Assembly: GCA_009841635.1 (NCBI GenBank)
Contig: VXLJ01000025.1
Coordinates: forward strand, 30,224-94,223
Length of the DNA: 64,000 bases
DNA from: Gammaproteobacteria bacterium
GTDB lineage: Bacteria > Pseudomonadota > Gammaproteobacteria > Pseudomonadales > Azotimanducaceae
Direction of reading: 5' to 3'
Position numbers and translations under genes: made by a program. The stretch's first letter is position 1. Every line of letters starts with the position of its first letter. The notes under the pieces are model-generated. The model ran no database searches, was not told the DNA's origin, and saw nothing but the letters and a program-made list of their open reading frames with translations. Positions 4,989-37,450 of the stretch are shown here, in pieces.

Positions 4989-5042
4989 GATTTAACGTAG
5001 TTAGAAGTCAAGCGCCTACTTCGCGTTAAATCACAACGTTGC
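4989..5042. repeat. 9-bp inverted repeat with 36-nt spacer
   Basis: GATTTAACG at 4989-4997 is matched by CGTTAAATC at 5034-5042. The pair lies in the 99-base gap between the YdjM-like gene and the sulfatase-fold gene. It is AT-rich with no T-run after it, so it is not a standard terminator. It may be a regulator site for the downstream gene or a chance pair. Confidence 0.35.
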
Positions 5043-5071
5043 AGTGCCCTCTACAGTGAATTCGATCAGCT

Positions 5072-6463
5072 ATGAAAAAGAACGTCATCATCTTGGTCAC
5101 CGACACCTTCCGGTTCGACAATCTCTTCGGTTACGCTACGCGACCAGTTCGTACACCATGCCTGGATCGGTTTTGCGAAACGAGCGCGACGAATGTCACG
5201 AACTTCTTCACCGCGAGTTTTCCAACGATTCCTAACCGAACGGATTTAGCAACCGGCATCTTCGGTTGGCCACACTATGGGTGGCAACCCATCGACCAAA
5301 GCAATCCAAACCATATCGGCAAAACGCTGCATCGTGAGGGATATGTAACCCAATTGATCTGCGATTGCCCGCATCTCTTTAACAGCCGTTTTCAATTTGG
5401 GTTTGATGCGGCTTACCAACATCGCGGCCAAGAAGGCGACAAGCATCTGCTGCATTTGAATCATCCGATCACGAACGAAATGCCGTTGGAAAAGACGCGG
5501 CAGATACCGATTTGGAATGACAGCAGCCTTGCAGACGCCCACCGTTGGATCAACCGCTATTTCGAGGTGGAAGAAGAGACGTTTATGTACAAAACTGCCT
5601 CGACAACCGTGCGATGGCTAGAGGAAAACTATCAAGCTGAGCCATTCTTTCTCTGGGTTGACTTTTTCGATCCCCATGAACCATGGGATCCACCCGAGTA
5701 CATGGTGAAGAACTACGACCCTGATTACGACGGCGTACCCATGATCCATTGCAACTACGGTCCTGCGACCGATTACTCGGAGGCCGAACTTCACAATCTA
5801 TGGGCGCACTACGCGGCAGAATCCGAACTCGTCGACAAGCAGTTAGGCGTGGTGCTGCAAAAGATTCAGGAATTGCGTCTTCTCGACAATTCCATCGTCA
5901 TCATTACCAGCGACCACGGCACGAGCATCGGCGAGCACAACCGCACGGGCAAAAGCAACATCTCAGACAACGACGATCGCTTCTGGCCGATCTATCCCGA
6001 AGTTGGCCATGTGCCATTCATCATAGGTGGTGCTGGCGTACCCTCTGGTAAAACCGTGGACTTTCTCGCCCAACCACCAGATATCTTGCCCACCTTGAGC
6101 GAGCTAGCGGGATTCGAACTTGACGTTCGACAACCTGTCAACGGTATGAGTTTCGCTAGCGCCCTACAGAATGGCAAAAGTCATCGTGACCTCGTTGTTA
6201 GCGCAGGTTACATTCGCGTCCTCGAAGATGGCTCTTGTCCACCTAACGCTGTTACACCGTTTGCCATAGACGGACGGTGGGGCTACGCTGCAGTTGGTGC
6301 GGAAGGCACGCCAGAGCTGTACGAGTACGTCAAGGACCAGAACGCCGAAACGAATGTGATAGATGACCATCCTGAGCAAGCAAAAGAAATGCAACAAAAA
6401 TTCGAGGCGCATATGCGTTCAATTGGTGGCGATGACGCGCTCGTGAACTGCTGGTCGCCATAA
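5072..6463 (+). CDS. Sulfatase-fold hydrolase with Thr at the nucleophile site
   Basis: This 463-aa protein has the alkaline-phosphatase/sulfatase fold: the N-terminal strand NVIILVTDTFRFDN with metal-binding Asp, a central SDHGTSIGEHN metal motif, and the DPHEPWDPP loop. In type I sulfatases the nucleophile motif is C/S-x-P-x-R, where Cys or Ser is converted to formylglycine. Here it reads T52-I-P-N-R56, so formylglycine cannot form. Threonine is the nucleophile in nucleotide pyrophosphatase/phosphodiesterase relatives, so a phosphodiesterase or phosphatase-type activity is more likely than sulfate ester hydrolysis; this is inference. There is no signal peptide, so it is likely cytoplasmic. 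The flavin oxidoreductase remnant follows after 31 bases. Confidence 0.85.
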   Translation: MKKNVIILVTDTFRFDNLFGYATRPVRTPCLDRFCETSATNVTNFFTASFPTIPNRTDLATGIFGWPHYGWQPIDQSNPNHIGKTLHREGYVTQLICDCPHLFNSRFQFGFDAAYQHRGQEGDKHLLHLNHPITNEMPLEKTRQIPIWNDSSLADAHRWINRYFEVEEETFMYKTASTTVRWLEENYQAEPFFLWVDFFDPHEPWDPPEYMVKNYDPDYDGVPMIHCNYGPATDYSEAELHNLWAHYAAESELVDKQLGVVLQKIQELRLLDNSIVIITSDHGTSIGEHNRTGKSNISDNDDRFWPIYPEVGHVPFIIGGAGVPSGKTVDFLAQPPDILPTLSELAGFELDVRQPVNGMSFASALQNGKSHRDLVVSAGYIRVLEDGSCPPNAVTPFAIDGRWGYAAVGAEGTPELYEYVKDQNAETNVIDDHPEQAKEMQQKFEAHMRSIGGDDALVNCWSP

Positions 6464-32283: not shown

Positions 32284-33939
32284 ATGGCTACTGTAACTGG
32301 CGCGACCTTGATGGCGCGAAGCCTTAAACAACAAGGTGTCGACTATATGTTCGGCATTGTCGGCTTTCCTGTGCAAGGCGTCGCTGCAGCGGCCCAACAA
32401 GAAGGCATCACTTATATCGGCATGCGCAACGAGCAAGCCGCAAGTTACGCAGCTCACGCCGCAGGCTACCTCACGGGTCGTCCACAAGCGTGTTTGACGG
32501 TTTCAGGTCCAGGCGTCATCCATGCATTCGCCGGCTTAGCAAACGCGAAAGAAAACTGCTGGCCCATGATCCTGATCGGTGGCGCTTCGCCGATTTATCA
32601 AAATGGCATGGGGGCTTTCCAAGAGGAACGCCAAACCGAGCTGGCCGCACCGTACTGCAAGTATGCCCACAATATCGAACACGCTGAGCGCATACCGTAT
32701 TACGTTGCCCAAGCGGTGCAAAGTTCGATCTATGGACGTCCCGGTCCTGTGTATTTGGACTTCCCAGACGACATCATTCGTGGCGAAGTCGAAGAAGACG
32801 ACTTGCAAGAAATCGCCCGCATCCCTGATCCACCACGCACGCTTGCCGACCCTGATGCGATCGAAGGTGCGTTGGATGCCTTAGAAGGAGCGCAAAAGCC
32901 CTTAGTGGTCGTTGGCAAAGGCATGGCATGGTCCCAGGCCGAGGACGAAGTGCGCGCCTTCATAGAGCGGACCCAACTGCCGTTCTTGGCTTCGCCTATG
33001 GGTAAAGGGATCCTACCCGATGACGATCCATTGTCGGTCGGTGCAGCACGAAGCACTGCGCTGCGTGAAGCTGACGTGGTATTTCTTATGGGTGCGCGGC
33101 TCAATTGGATCATGCACTTTGGCCTGCCACCAAGATTCAACAAAGACGTGCGCATCATCCAGCTCGACATAAACCCGGAAGAGATCGGGCGCAATGTCCC
33201 AACCGACGTAGCCCTCGTCGGCGACGGCAAAGCGATCACGAAGCAACTCAATACCGCTCTAGGTGACCGGCAATGGTTCTATCCAGATGAAACTGCATGG
33301 CGACAAACGCTGCAGGCTAAAGCTGACGACAACGCCGAAGCCGTGCGTGGCATGATCGAAGATGATGCCTCGCCGATGAATTACTACCGTGCATTCAAAG
33401 ACATCAATGAATGGCTGCCTGATGACGCCATCATCATCGGTGAAGGCGCGAATACGATGGATATCGGCCGTACGCAAATGCTCAACAAGCTGCCCCGTCA
33501 TCGACTCGACGCAGGTACCTATGGCACGATGGGTATCGGTCTTGGTTTTGCCATCGCAGCCGCAGTTACCAATCCTGACAAACCGGTTGTCTCCGTCCAA
33601 GGCGACTCGGCGTTTGGCTTCTCTGGCATGGAGATCGAAACCATGGTGCGCTACAAGTTGCCAATCAAATTAATCGTGCTCAACAATGGTGGTATCGGCG
33701 GTGGCATAGGTCCTTTAGAAGAAGGTCAAACCGTGCCCCCAGGCATTTTGACGTACGGTGCACACTACGAAGGCATGATGGAAGCGTTAGGTGGCAAGGG
33801 TTACTACGTTGAAGACCCCAAAGATCTTCGCGGCGCACTTGACGATGCAATGGCGTTTGATGGCCCAACCCTGATTAATGTGCCGCTAAATCCACGCGCA
33901 GGTCGCAAACCACAACAATTTGGTTGGCTGACTACATAG
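32284..33939 (+). CDS. 2-hydroxyacyl-CoA lyase / oxalyl-CoA decarboxylase (TPP enzyme)
   Basis: This 551-aa thiamine-diphosphate enzyme most resembles HACL1 and oxalyl-CoA decarboxylase. E50 (MRNEQAASYA) is the cofactor-activating Glu. The TPP/Mg motif starts at G440-D-S with FGFSGMEIETMVRYKLP and ends VLNNGGIGGG. Phrases typical of HACL are GARLNWIMHFGLPP, EGANTMDIGRT and RHRLDAGTYGTMGIG. HACL cleaves 2-hydroxyacyl-CoA to formyl-CoA and a shortened aldehyde; oxalyl-CoA decarboxylase makes formyl-CoA and CO2. TTAGGAG lies just upstream of the ATG. It opens a probable operon that also contains a PhyH oxygenase, which favours the alpha-oxidation role; this is inference. Confidence 0.9.
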   Translation: MATVTGATLMARSLKQQGVDYMFGIVGFPVQGVAAAAQQEGITYIGMRNEQAASYAAHAAGYLTGRPQACLTVSGPGVIHAFAGLANAKENCWPMILIGGASPIYQNGMGAFQEERQTELAAPYCKYAHNIEHAERIPYYVAQAVQSSIYGRPGPVYLDFPDDIIRGEVEEDDLQEIARIPDPPRTLADPDAIEGALDALEGAQKPLVVVGKGMAWSQAEDEVRAFIERTQLPFLASPMGKGILPDDDPLSVGAARSTALREADVVFLMGARLNWIMHFGLPPRFNKDVRIIQLDINPEEIGRNVPTDVALVGDGKAITKQLNTALGDRQWFYPDETAWRQTLQAKADDNAEAVRGMIEDDASPMNYYRAFKDINEWLPDDAIIIGEGANTMDIGRTQMLNKLPRHRLDAGTYGTMGIGLGFAIAAAVTNPDKPVVSVQGDSAFGFSGMEIETMVRYKLPIKLIVLNNGGIGGGIGPLEEGQTVPPGILTYGAHYEGMMEALGGKGYYVEDPKDLRGALDDAMAFDGPTLINVPLNPRAGRKPQQFGWLTT

Positions 33940-33968
33940 CACAATCCGCACAAGCGTAGCCAAAAGCT

Positions 33969-34430
33969 ATGAGCAACGACGCTAAAAGCCCGATTGGCAA
34001 GCTCGACCACATCGGGTTTGCTGTTCACAGCATTGAGGAAGCGCGCAAGTTCTGGGAAGATCAACTTGGCGCAACGATGCAACGCGTGGTGGACCACCAT
34101 AGTGGTGATTTTCGGCTGGGGATTCTGGATTTGCACGGTTTTTGCATCGAATTGCTTGAACCCATTAATCCGGATGGATTTCTGACCAAATACTTAGAGA
34201 AGCGCGGTGAAGGCATTCACCACATCACGCTACAAACGCCAGATCTAGTCGAGAAAGTAGAAGATTTGGAACAAGCCGGCGTGCGTGTGGTGGATAAACA
34301 TTTCGACACCGCCAGCGGCGGTGTGGATGCTTTCATATCGCCGAAGAGTTCGCATGGCGTGCTCATTCAACTCGGACAGAACGTTGGTCCGCTCAATAAC
34401 CAGCCGTACTGGGAAGACGAAGAGGCGTAA
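33969..34430 (+). CDS. VOC protein, methylmalonyl-CoA-epimerase-like
   Basis: This 153-aa vicinal-oxygen-chelate protein has two beta-alpha-beta-beta-beta modules. Its motifs follow methylmalonyl-CoA epimerase: KLDHIGFAVHSIEEARKFWE at the start, FCIELLEP in the middle, and GEGIHHITLQTPD with the second metal His. The last metal ligand, normally Glu in VLIEL, reads VLIQL here, so metal binding may be altered. The gene starts 29 bases after the lyase and its stop overlaps the next start as TAATG. A CoA-thioester epimerase role would fit a branched-chain acyl-CoA route, but the Glu-to-Gln change makes another VOC activity possible. Confidence 0.8.
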   Translation: MSNDAKSPIGKLDHIGFAVHSIEEARKFWEDQLGATMQRVVDHHSGDFRLGILDLHGFCIELLEPINPDGFLTKYLEKRGEGIHHITLQTPDLVEKVEDLEQAGVRVVDKHFDTASGGVDAFISPKSSHGVLIQLGQNVGPLNNQPYWEDEEA

Positions 34431-35167
34431 TGGCGAATTTGCCAGTTGTCTACTGGCAGCCTGGATGAACCAGCTGTCTAAGGGTTAAAGAATTCCTCTC
34501 GACTCGTGCGGTTGAGTTTGAATCTGCGAACATTCGCGCTGATGAGGCGCGCTTAGCTGAACTGCACGAACTCGGATTCGATACGGTGCCTGTCGTAGCA
34601 GTAAGCGATCGTGCGGTGCACGGCGTCGACCTGCAGCAAGTAGCTGCGCTCGTAGGCCTCCACGAGAGCTTTGACCCACAGCTCGCGCCACAAGAGCTCA
34701 AGCATCGTCAAGGAAAGCTATTGACTTGGTTGGACGCCGTAATCGACACACTGCCAAGTGATACATTCGACATTCCAATACCCGGACGCGATCGCACAGT
34801 TTGGACCCTTATTGAGCACGTGTGCGAAATTGGCCAGGTCTATCGGCGCGTTGCAACTCAACAAGCAGTTTTCGACAGCGCGGCGGCCGAGGCGGAGGTA
34901 AACCAGCGGCACAACCGTCATGAATTGCAATCAGCTATCGCTTCATTACAAGCAGCTTTAATCGCAGAAAACGAAAACTATGCGCGAGTCATTGAGACCT
35001 ATTTCGGCGAAGCATCGCTGCATGTCGTGCTGGAACGTTGCACATGGCATATTGCGCAACACTTACGACAGTTAGAAAGCTTGCTTGAACCCGAAGGCAT
35101 CGACCTACCACCGCTCGATAGCAGTTACTTTAAAAGTTTGCCGTTGCCAGCTGCGGTATGGGATTGA
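34430..35167 (+). CDS. Glutaredoxin-DinB fusion with in-frame TGA at the CxxC position (candidate selenoprotein)
   Basis: Read through one TGA, this is a 245-aa protein. Residues 1-80 are glutaredoxin-like: VVYWQPG, then TGA at codon 13 (34466-34468), then TSCLRVKEFL, later ELGFDTVPVVAVSDRAVHG with the cis-Pro. Related proteins read PGCTSC there, so TGA replaces the first redox Cys and U-T-S-C would result. Residues about 85-245 form a DinB-like four-helix domain (RTVWTLIEHVCEIGQVYRRV, CTWHIAQHLRQLESLL). The ATG overlaps the VOC stop (TAATG), which supports this start. Without recoding, only the part from GTG 34586 or later would be made. I find no strong SECIS: a 6-bp stem at 34498-34516 has its loop 35 bases after the TGA, and two weaker hairpins lie nearer. 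Confidence 0.75.
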
Positions 35168-35174
35168 GGCCGTG

Positions 35175-35594
35175 GTGGACAAGCGTGAGCGACGACTCGG
35201 CGCGAAAAAGTTCGTGTTGCTGCACCACAGTAACTGCTATCGTGACTCATTCCATTATCGAATTGATGCAGATGGCACGTTGGTCCATCTCACACCAGAC
35301 GATGTGCGTTCACAACATCCCAACGCCATAGGCGTGCAGCTGATTGGCAATTTCGATCACGAATCAGTCAAACCCGTTCAAATTCAAGCGTTAAAGCGCT
35401 TACTCCTTGAACTGAAGCTACGCTACCCCGCCGTGGAGCTCGGCGGTCACAGGCAAGTTCGTGGCGACAAAACGACAACTTGCCCAGGCCGACGGTTTCC
35501 GATGCGCGCATTGCATGAATGGGCGGCGTCCAACCTCTTGGATGAACGAGATGACGTATTACGCGATGTCATTGAATCGCAATACCGACCTTAA
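35175..35594 (+). CDS. N-acetylmuramoyl-L-alanine amidase-like (PGRP/T7-lysozyme fold) protein
   Basis: This small amidase_2/PGRP-type protein is about 139 aa, close to T7 lysozyme (151 aa). Zinc ligands appear as H17 (FVLLHHS), the His of GGHRQVRGDK and the Cys of TTTCPG. Tyr28 (HYRID) and the Lys before TTTC could be the catalytic pair. There is no signal peptide, so a cytoplasmic role such as muropeptide recycling, or another amide substrate, is as likely as wall lysis. The frame is open from 35085, but GTG 35175 has GAGG 5 bases upstream; GTG 35172 is also possible. It follows the DinB gene by 7 bases within the operon. Confidence 0.8.
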   Translation: MDKRERRLGAKKFVLLHHSNCYRDSFHYRIDADGTLVHLTPDDVRSQHPNAIGVQLIGNFDHESVKPVQIQALKRLLLELKLRYPAVELGGHRQVRGDKTTTCPGRRFPMRALHEWAASNLLDERDDVLRDVIESQYRP

Positions 35595-35638
35595 ACGGTA
35601 AACTAGCAAGCCACCATTACTCAGTCGTTCGAATACGT

Positions 35639-36535
35639 ATGGATATTGCTGCTCAAGGCGCTCAGCCGCATCTCGACAGTCTCATGCAAGACCTCGAAAA
35701 GTACGACCTGCTCAAACACGCAGTTGAGCTTGATGCGTACGGCTTAACGGTCATACCGCCTGAAAAAATGGGCGTCGACAAAGCCTGGGTCACGCGGCTT
35801 CGCGATGCGATTTTGCGCACATGCGAAAAGCGCAACGATATAGAAATCGGTGCGCCCGAAGACGCTTCACCAGACGATGTCAAGAAGTCATTTCTTAACT
35901 CCTGGTACTTGCTTCAAGAAGACGAGGTTTTTGTCGAAGCGGCCTTGAATCCTCAAGTGCTAACCATCGCGCGCTGGTTATGTGGGCAAAGCACCGTGCT
36001 CGCTGGACATACTTGGATTATCAAACCTGAAACGAAGCATGGTTTAGGCCTGCACAGCGACGCCCATGGCATTCCCCCGGGCGGCGGTCATATCGCACAC
36101 GTGGCGAATCTTTCGTGGCTATGCACGGACTACGCTTCTGCAGATGACGGTCCAACGGTATTCGTGCCAGGGAGCCATCGTTACGGCCGTGCGACGTTGC
36201 CTCATGAATCTAAGCTCGATGAAACGCCGTACCCAGTCGTGCCATTGCATGGCGAAGCCGGCTCGCTCGCAGTTTGGCATGGTGCGACTTGGCATGGTTC
36301 GCATCCACGAAAAAATCCTGGTCTGCGAGTCACATTGGTGCAGGTGTTTATGCGCATGCATATGCGCCCCATTCACCACTGGCAACGCGAGGAAATCAGT
36401 AGCAACTTACTTAGCAAATACCCGGAGCTAGAGCGTGTGCTTGGGCTCGAATCCCTCTATCCATACAAAGAACACAACCAGCACCCAGAACGGGTCGGTC
36501 CATTTATGCAAACTGGCACGGATCCTTTCGCTTAA
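35639..36535 (+). CDS. Phytanoyl-CoA dioxygenase (PhyH) family protein
   Basis: This 298-aa Fe(II)/2-oxoglutarate oxygenase has metal ligands H139-S-D141 (GLHSDAHG) and H219 (ATWHGSH), and R230 as the 2-oxoglutarate anchor. The family landmark FVPGSHRYGR lies between. H214 in a first WHG copy (WHGATWHGS) is a near duplicate of the metal His. The gene sits in the same predicted transcript as 2-hydroxyacyl-CoA lyase, 44 bases after the amidase gene. In peroxisomes PhyH makes 2-hydroxyphytanoyl-CoA, which HACL1 then cleaves; this pairing is the strongest clue to its role here. Confidence 0.9.
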   Translation: MDIAAQGAQPHLDSLMQDLEKYDLLKHAVELDAYGLTVIPPEKMGVDKAWVTRLRDAILRTCEKRNDIEIGAPEDASPDDVKKSFLNSWYLLQEDEVFVEAALNPQVLTIARWLCGQSTVLAGHTWIIKPETKHGLGLHSDAHGIPPGGGHIAHVANLSWLCTDYASADDGPTVFVPGSHRYGRATLPHESKLDETPYPVVPLHGEAGSLAVWHGATWHGSHPRKNPGLRVTLVQVFMRMHMRPIHHWQREEISSNLLSKYPELERVLGLESLYPYKEHNQHPERVGPFMQTGTDPFA

Positions 36536-36562
36536 TCCAATCGGCTACTGAAGAGAACCATT

Positions 36563-37450
36563 GTGCCAACCGAAGTCAGAGATTCACGCTTAAACGACAT
36601 CGTTGAACCGAACGTCGAATTGGAAGTTCTAGGCGAAAACTTTGGGTTTACGGAAGGACCTATTTGGCACCCTCAGGATAAACACCTGACCTTCTCTGAT
36701 ATCCCTTCAAATCGCATGCATCGCTGGTCCGCAGCAAATGGTTTGAGCGTATATCGAGAACCGAGCCAGTATGCCAATGGCAATACCTACGACAAGCAGG
36801 GTCGAATCCTCACGTGCGAACATGGCACCAGCCGGGTTGTTCGCCAAGAAGCGGATGGTTCGCTAAATATCCTCGCAAGTCATTGGGACGGCAAGGAGTT
36901 GAACAGTCCCAACGACATTGTGGTGCATAGCAACGGCGATATCTTCTTCACCGACCCAACCTTCGGCCGCTCTGACGCGTCAGGGATTGAACGGCCGCTT
37001 GAGTTAGATATCACGGGCGTGTACAAGATTGACGCTCATTCTGGTCAACTACAGTTATTACGAAGCGACTTTACCCAACCCAATGGCCTCGCCTTTACGC
37101 AAGACGAACAGCATCTCTACGTGGCGGACACGCCGCAAATGCACATTCGAAAGTTCGCAGTTGATGAAGACGGCTCTTTATCAGGTGGGGAGATCTTCGC
37201 ACACGAAACCGGCCAAGGGGCCGGTGCGCCGGACGGGCTAAAGGTTGATTCGCTGGGCAATGTGTACTGTTGTGGACCGGGCGGTGTACAGGTGTTTTTC
37301 TCTGATGGCACATGTTTAGGCGTTATTCAAACGCCAGCATTCTGCGCAAACTTCACCTGGGGTGGGGACGATCTTTTAACCTTTTTTCTGACTTCATCCA
37401 ACCACTTGTATCGCATCCCCGTCAAGGTTCCCGGGGTTGCGCTTTTTTAA
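36563..37450 (+). CDS. SMP-30/gluconolactonase family (LRE) protein
   Basis: This 295-aa six-bladed beta-propeller lactonase has the family Glu in FTEGPIWHP (metal ligand), the Asn of NGNTYDKQGRILTCEHGTSR, the central SPNDIVVHSNGDIFFTDPTFG and the final-blade GAPDGLKVDSLGNVY with metal Asp. Such enzymes hydrolyse sugar lactones or related esters using calcium or zinc. The start is GTG, 27 bases after the PhyH stop. It is the last gene of the operon; an intrinsic terminator overlaps its final codons. Its role beside acyl-CoA enzymes is unclear, and a lactone intermediate is one possibility. Confidence 0.88.
   Translation: MPTEVRDSRLNDIVEPNVELEVLGENFGFTEGPIWHPQDKHLTFSDIPSNRMHRWSAANGLSVYREPSQYANGNTYDKQGRILTCEHGTSRVVRQEADGSLNILASHWDGKELNSPNDIVVHSNGDIFFTDPTFGRSDASGIERPLELDITGVYKIDAHSGQLQLLRSDFTQPNGLAFTQDEQHLYVADTPQMHIRKFAVDEDGSLSGGEIFAHETGQGAGAPDGLKVDSLGNVYCCGPGGVQVFFSDGTCLGVIQTPAFCANFTWGGDDLLTFFLTSSNHLYRIPVKVPGVALF
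37412..37448 (+). terminator. Intrinsic terminator overlapping the SMP-30 gene end
   Basis: CGCA-T-CCCCG (37412-37421) pairs with CGGGG-T-TGCG (37432-37441), giving nine pairs with one T-T mismatch and a 10-base loop. C and six T (37443-37448) follow. The hairpin codes for the last residues of the lactonase, and the T-run supplies the final Phe codon and the first base of the stop. Confidence 0.85.

Follow-up and report, generated by a model that had tools for sequence, protein, structure and literature searches.

Glutaredoxins that carry selenocysteine (Sec) have been described before. Sec-glutaredoxin (PF00462, UxxC) is listed as experimentally verified in a 2026 review, whose table holds 119 families or subfamilies by its authors' count, several fusions among them (PMC13188914). 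A Sargasso Sea survey, in its available part, reports 10 glutaredoxin selenoprotein sequences (PMC1088965). According to the accessible portion of PMC5815605, the DinB/STL proteins that B. subtilis uses as bacillithiol transferases depend on a metal and have three conserved histidines; where such a protein has two domains, the second is thought to determine the co-substrate. One characterised mycothiol transferase has two His and one Asp instead of three His, as stated in the excerpt of PMC10950700. Sec in a glutaredoxin-like domain is also found in the UXX-star and HUGP/GUXX-star proteins (NF041212, NF041211 and NF045501), one of which is itself a fusion. Finally, glutathione transferases combine a thioredoxin fold with a helical domain that follows it.

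The locus analysed here lies in a stretch of 64,000 nucleotides from a Gammaproteobacteria genome, hereafter the window, and it resembles each of these systems only in part. Like Sec-glutaredoxin, the window protein has a glutaredoxin fold whose UxxC motif is predicted to begin with Sec, but the table entry of the former names no second domain, whereas the window protein adds a fused DinB domain. It shares the DinB profile and three conserved His with BstA-H of the DinB/STL superfamily, as these are presented in the available text of PMC5815605, and differs from them by its N-terminal Sec glutaredoxin. It scores far under the cut-offs of the UXX-star and HUGP/GUXX-star models (29.3 of 66 for NF041212, 17.6 of 100 for NF041211 and 17.1 of 325 for NF045501), and the NCBIfam scan of the protein found no model at its cut-off. 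Glutathione transferases are its top Foldseek matches by E-value, yet they superpose with a TM of about 0.3 and an rmsd of about 15 Å, and the helical domain of the window protein matches DinB instead.

The DinB fusion is absent from the selenoprotein table of PMC13188914, as is the word DinB from its main text, and no selenoprotein with DinB was found in the open-licence literature searched by titles and the beginnings of abstracts. As far as these sources show, Sec-glutaredoxin is known; what is new is the form fused to DinB, in which Sec and Cys are exchanged and the hairpin comes in two types. The glutaredoxin selenoproteins of the Sargasso Sea, as far as the survey's available part describes them, could include this fusion.

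The fusion gene and its in-frame TGA codon

The gene starts at ATG 34430, overlapping the stop codon of the preceding VOC gene as TAATG. Its translation begins MANLPVVYWQPG-TGA-TSCLRVKEFL, and TGA 34466-34468 is the sole internal stop of the frame 34430-35167. The terminal stop, at 35165-35167, is a TGA too. The features that concern us are the following:

34430 to 35167, plus strand: glutaredoxin(Sec)-DinB fusion gene, 245 residues with TGA taken as Sec; both domains matched by Pfam; same architecture in relatives
34466 to 34468, plus strand: TGA codon 13, predicted to be read as Sec (the U of UxxC); TGA in 12/12 related holders
34475 to 34477, plus strand: codon 16, resolving Cys of UxxC; invariant in 55/55 rows
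34498 to 34516, plus strand: probable SECIS hairpin; stem 34498-34504 with 34510-34516, loop CGUGC at 34505-34509
34817 to 34819, plus strand: His130, putative DinB metal ligand; invariant in 55/55 rows
35048 to 35062, plus strand: His207 and His211 (HxxxH), putative DinB metal ligands; invariant in 55/55 rows

An earlier note, made from the letters of the window, had proposed a candidate selenoprotein with this frame and this overlap, no second stop up to 35167, a retained cis-Pro segment DTVPVV and homologues reading PGCTSC. Start and overlap were reproduced from the sequence, a recheck of the frame showed TGA 34466-34468 alone, DTVPVV is present in the translated protein, and in the alignment the homologues read PGCTSC or PGCSSC. 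That default gene calling would keep only the DinB part from 34586 was also borne out by rechecking the open reading frames: the open frame that remains past the TGA has GTG 34586 as its first ATG, GTG or TTG, and this start yields a protein of 193 aa. A reading that ignores recoding begins the ORF there and loses the active site of the glutaredoxin. The candidate selenoprotein reading itself is now supported by the sel genes, the Sec/Cys exchange and the conserved hairpin described below.

We propose that the cell's own SelA/SelB/SelC/SelD system would translate this TGA as Sec, and that recoding would be directed by a hairpin whose loop starts 36 nt downstream of the TGA. The product would be a single protein with an N-terminal UxxC glutaredoxin and a C-terminal helical DinB domain bearing three invariant histidines. 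From the comparison of sequences, we consider Sec insertion at codon 13 to be nearly certain, and the recoded glutaredoxin(Sec)-DinB fusion protein follows it only slightly behind in confidence.

Domain structure, possible function and gene neighbourhood

Pfam Glutaredoxin (PF00462) matches residues 6-61 of the window protein with 41.7 bits (gathering cut-off 22.9) and Pfam DinB_2 (PF12867) matches residues 101-215 with 25.5 bits (gathering cut-off 24.8). Among 55 members of the family, Glutaredoxin was matched in all 55 and DinB_2 in 47 at E 0.001. Residue 13 (Sec or Cys), Cys16, Pro54, His130, His207 and His211 are invariant in the 55 rows. An AlphaFold2 model, in which Cys was substituted for Sec, reached a mean pLDDT of 95.3 and a pTM of 0.91, and Foldseek matches per domain gave TM values, normalised by target length, of 0.87 for 3zit and 0.78 for 6iz2, the nearest DinB protein of solved structure. 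The 24 solved sequences found by sequence profile all match inside the glutaredoxin part.

By analogy, the DinB domain is inferred to be a putative metal-dependent thiol transferase or a related enzyme. It is tempting to propose a division of labour in which the DinB domain would make or break a thiol adduct, while the Sec-glutaredoxin domain would reduce that adduct or supply the nucleophile. We put this forward tentatively, as somewhat short of an even chance. Nearly as likely, though still well below even, the recoding is real and the protein acts as nothing more than a selenol reductant of the glutaredoxin or NrdH-like kind, whose DinB domain has a structural or binding role without chemistry. 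Such a plain reductant would fit the invariance of UxxC and of the cis-Pro, the NrdH/YruB glutaredoxins being the profiles nearest to the window protein, and the known Sec-glutaredoxins, which are disulfide reductants in the part of PMC13188914 that deals with them. Against it, the three DinB histidines match the redox residues in invariance (55/55).

The fusion gene is surrounded by these genes:

32284 to 33939, plus strand: thiamine-diphosphate enzyme, oxalyl-CoA decarboxylase-like; NF006721 over its cut-off, TIGR03254 under its cut-off
33969 to 34430, plus strand: VOC (glyoxalase-like) protein; Pfam Glyoxalase_4, methylmalonyl-CoA epimerase model under its cut-off
35172 to 35594, plus strand: Amidase_2 protein; Pfam Amidase_2
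35639 to 36535, plus strand: PhyH-type dioxygenase; Pfam PhyH, with relatives in 11 loci at varying distance

The run of genes of this genus extends over 32284-37450 of the window, from the thiamine-diphosphate enzyme through VOC, the fusion, Amidase_2 and PhyH to the gene 36563-37450, which we take to encode a gluconolactonase-like protein. The thiamine-diphosphate enzyme, VOC, fusion and Amidase_2 genes form a group in the window and in eight relatives, nine loci that comprise all nine holders of the same genus. This order is not kept in homologues further removed. Since it is kept solely in the nine nearest loci, the neighbourhood leaves the function no narrower.

The hairpin downstream of the TGA codon

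The earlier note saw no convincing SECIS, which now appears too cautious: the hairpin that it listed first, at 34498-34516, is conserved and covarying. Its location stands; the 6-bp stem, the 7-base loop and the distance of 35 bases do not, and are better given as a 7-bp stem, a 5-nt loop and a first loop base 36 nt past the TGA. We compared aligned homologues with TGA (Sec rows) or a Cys codon (Cys rows) at codon 13. In 18 Sec rows, picked as canonical-looking, 96.0% of the cells of the stem are paired, with changes on both sides at 4 of the 7 pairs; stems slid along as controls reached at most 48.4%. The covariation score of the stem was reached by none of 500 shuffles, and the number of pairs changed on both sides by 32 of 500. 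When six more Sec rows were added (n=24), stem pairing was 85.1%; L053, L083, L087, L097, L107 and L112 are in neither of these two counts. At least 6 of the 7 stem pairs are formed in 20 of 28 distinct Sec rows, the other 8 falling short, versus none of 53 Cys rows.

The folding energies point the same way. The segment from +30 to +53 is stabler than its synonymous recodings (p 0.05) in 22 of 24 Sec rows, these being all except the four with a second hairpin type, versus 3 of 53 Cys rows. Three control segments further downstream gave 3, 0 and 0 of the 24 Sec rows and 2, 2 and 1 of the 53 Cys rows. When the segment was widened, 18 of 28 distinct Sec rows stood out in this way and so did 1 of 53 Cys rows, and an earlier test on a smaller set of rows had given 15/24 and 1/52 at p 0.05. 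The stability of the window hairpin is by itself not significant, with p 0.124 in the wider segment and 0.074 in the earlier test.

According to the available text of PMC13188914, the bSECIS rules ask for a loop of 3-9 nt, a stem of 4-16 bp, a G in the first two loop positions, a spacing of 16-37 nt from the UGA and an energy of -7.5 kcal/mol or lower. The window hairpin satisfies the loop, stem, guanosine and spacing rules (CGUGC, 7 bp, 36 nt), and fails the energy rule with -5.9 vs -7.5 kcal/mol. A hairpin satisfying all four bSECIS rules is present in 22 of the 28 distinct Sec rows. However, 37 of the 53 Cys rows pass the first three generic rules and 17 pass all four, and because so many Cys rows pass too, we regard these rules as weak evidence here. 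A further trace of the element is seen in the protein: Arg26 is CGT in all 18 canonical Sec rows, and Asn or His stands there in 44 of 52 Cys homologues. This suggests that letters of the protein are set by the RNA element, and the hairpin appears to constrain the residues where the two overlap. Taken on this comparative evidence, the 34498-34516 hairpin is very probably the SECIS.

Four distinct Sec forms, L054, L093, L101 and L097, lack a stem of this type (L107 and L112 are identical to L097 over the 60 bases), and in L041, L044 and L046 the first hairpin is present in a shifted version. The same four forms carry another hairpin, on the KEFL codons and 22-23 nt after the TGA (L054 3326-3382, L093 5019-5075, L101 5019-5075, L097 at about 5016). 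The test for this second hairpin is passed by 5 of the 53 Cys rows as well, and its p-values are not independent because the segment was picked after the folds were seen. We consider a second hairpin in the distant Sec homologues a strong lead.

The true SECIS might then be some other structure, such as this KEFL-codon hairpin or a longer alternative fold of the window, which is more stable than the 34498-34516 hairpin (-12.5 vs -5.9 kcal/mol). We think this improbable: in the remaining 24 Sec rows the KEFL segment does not stand out (mean z -0.05), and the longer fold is set aside because it is the 34498-34516 stem that covaries and that, at 6 of 7 pairs, is missing from all 53 Cys rows. The hairpin at 34498-34516 is accordingly kept as the candidate SECIS of the window.

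Exchange with cysteine and the selenocysteine machinery

The earlier note had looked to selA, selB, selC and selD, and all four are found in the host genome (2.9 Mb in 53 contigs, given as 97.25% complete). The tRNA-Sec gene scores 71.3 bits (cut-off 47), and ARAGORN also calls a tRNA-SeC with anticodon tca. Both selA and selB are above cut-off and lie adjacent with a 4-base overlap, and selD is above cut-off in the same genome.

In a set of 38 genomes (the host and its relatives), 12 hold the gene, and each full-length match has one internal stop, a TGA at the same codon. Thus the related holders carry TGA and not Cys, the alternative that had been raised for close relatives; it is in relatives further removed that Sec and Cys replace each other at this codon. 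Within this set selA is above cut-off in 27 genomes, among them all 12 holders; the 11 genomes lacking selA also lack the gene, and 15 have selA without it. Among 369 sampled genomes of the class, only this genome and one other gave a match at E 1e-15, and the other has TGC at codon 13. A scan of named genomes gave 314 relatives, and in the best 80 of the 314 codon 13 is TGA in 28, TGC in 31 and TGT in 21, with nothing else, so that TGA swaps only with Cys (28 vs 52). By their record names, these best 80 are mostly Alpha-, Beta- or Gammaproteobacteria or unplaced Proteobacteria, while one record bears the name SAR324 (L053, Sec) and one the name Nitrospira (L082, Cys). Ten of the named Sec loci belong to the set of 12 related holders.

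The Sec form goes with selA. Genomes with the Sec form have selA above cut-off in 29 of 30 cases (12/12, 11/12 and 6/6), versus 4 of 52 genomes with the Cys form (3/28 and 1/24). The sole exception among the 30 is the genome of L101 (gene 5001-5738), in which selA was not found. The genome of L093, a near-copy of L101, has a partial selA, and the gap for L101 probably reflects an incomplete genome.

It could be argued that the TGA is a true stop, created by a nonsense mutation or an assembly error, and that only the DinB part from GTG 34586 is made. TGA does act as a stop elsewhere in the genome, and default ORF calling yields precisely this DinB-only reading. A random nonsense mutation had already been judged unlikely in the earlier note, and the same TGA indeed recurs in 11 other related genomes and in 28 of the best 80 of 314 named homologues, with the upstream frame intact and with a linkage to selA. 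Because 12 of 38 genomes share a single TGA at the same codon, chance or sequencing error is insufficient, and we reject this reading as very unlikely. Least likely of all is that near-cognate suppression or reassignment inserts another amino acid: although the identity of residue 13 as Sec is deduced by comparison, TGA terminates the fusion gene itself in a genome with a complete Sec system and the exchange partner is only Cys (52/52 non-TGA homologues in the best 80 of 314), so this too is rejected.

We built a tree of 55 members with residues 13-31 left out. The distribution of Sec and Cys over it calls for four changes or more; well supported branches force two of these, and the tree leaves the direction of change open. 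We hypothesize, as a possibility that we hold for less probable than its opposite, that the fusion represents an unlisted selenoenzyme family. In it, a glutaredoxin with a selenol would work on one substrate jointly with a DinB metal centre of three His, in the manner of a metal-dependent, self-recycling thiol transferase, and the recoding signal would have arisen or moved more than once, with branches using two hairpins at different distances from one Sec codon. The locus adds a Sec/Cys family in records named Alpha-, Beta- and Gammaproteobacteria, whose redox site is cut off by ordinary gene calling, and it brings selenium chemistry together with a metal-type domain, DinB, a combination not in the table of PMC13188914. 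As Sec forms, Cys forms and two positions of the hairpin are all found at a single codon, it could provide a compact natural test of how a SECIS rises, moves and is lost.

Two other genes of the host genome touch on selenium. An AhpC/TSA protein with an in-frame TGA (NWUPYC; L116 737-1453, minus strand, contig C45) is a probable second selenoprotein of the genome, the Prx-like UxxC selenoproteins being a listed family (PMC13188914). The selD gene (L018 1501-2400, contig C23) sits in an open frame of 747 aa, and since the model length is 311, it may be a fusion; NADH dehydrogenase-SelD fusions are frequent in marine data, according to the available part of PMC2398784.
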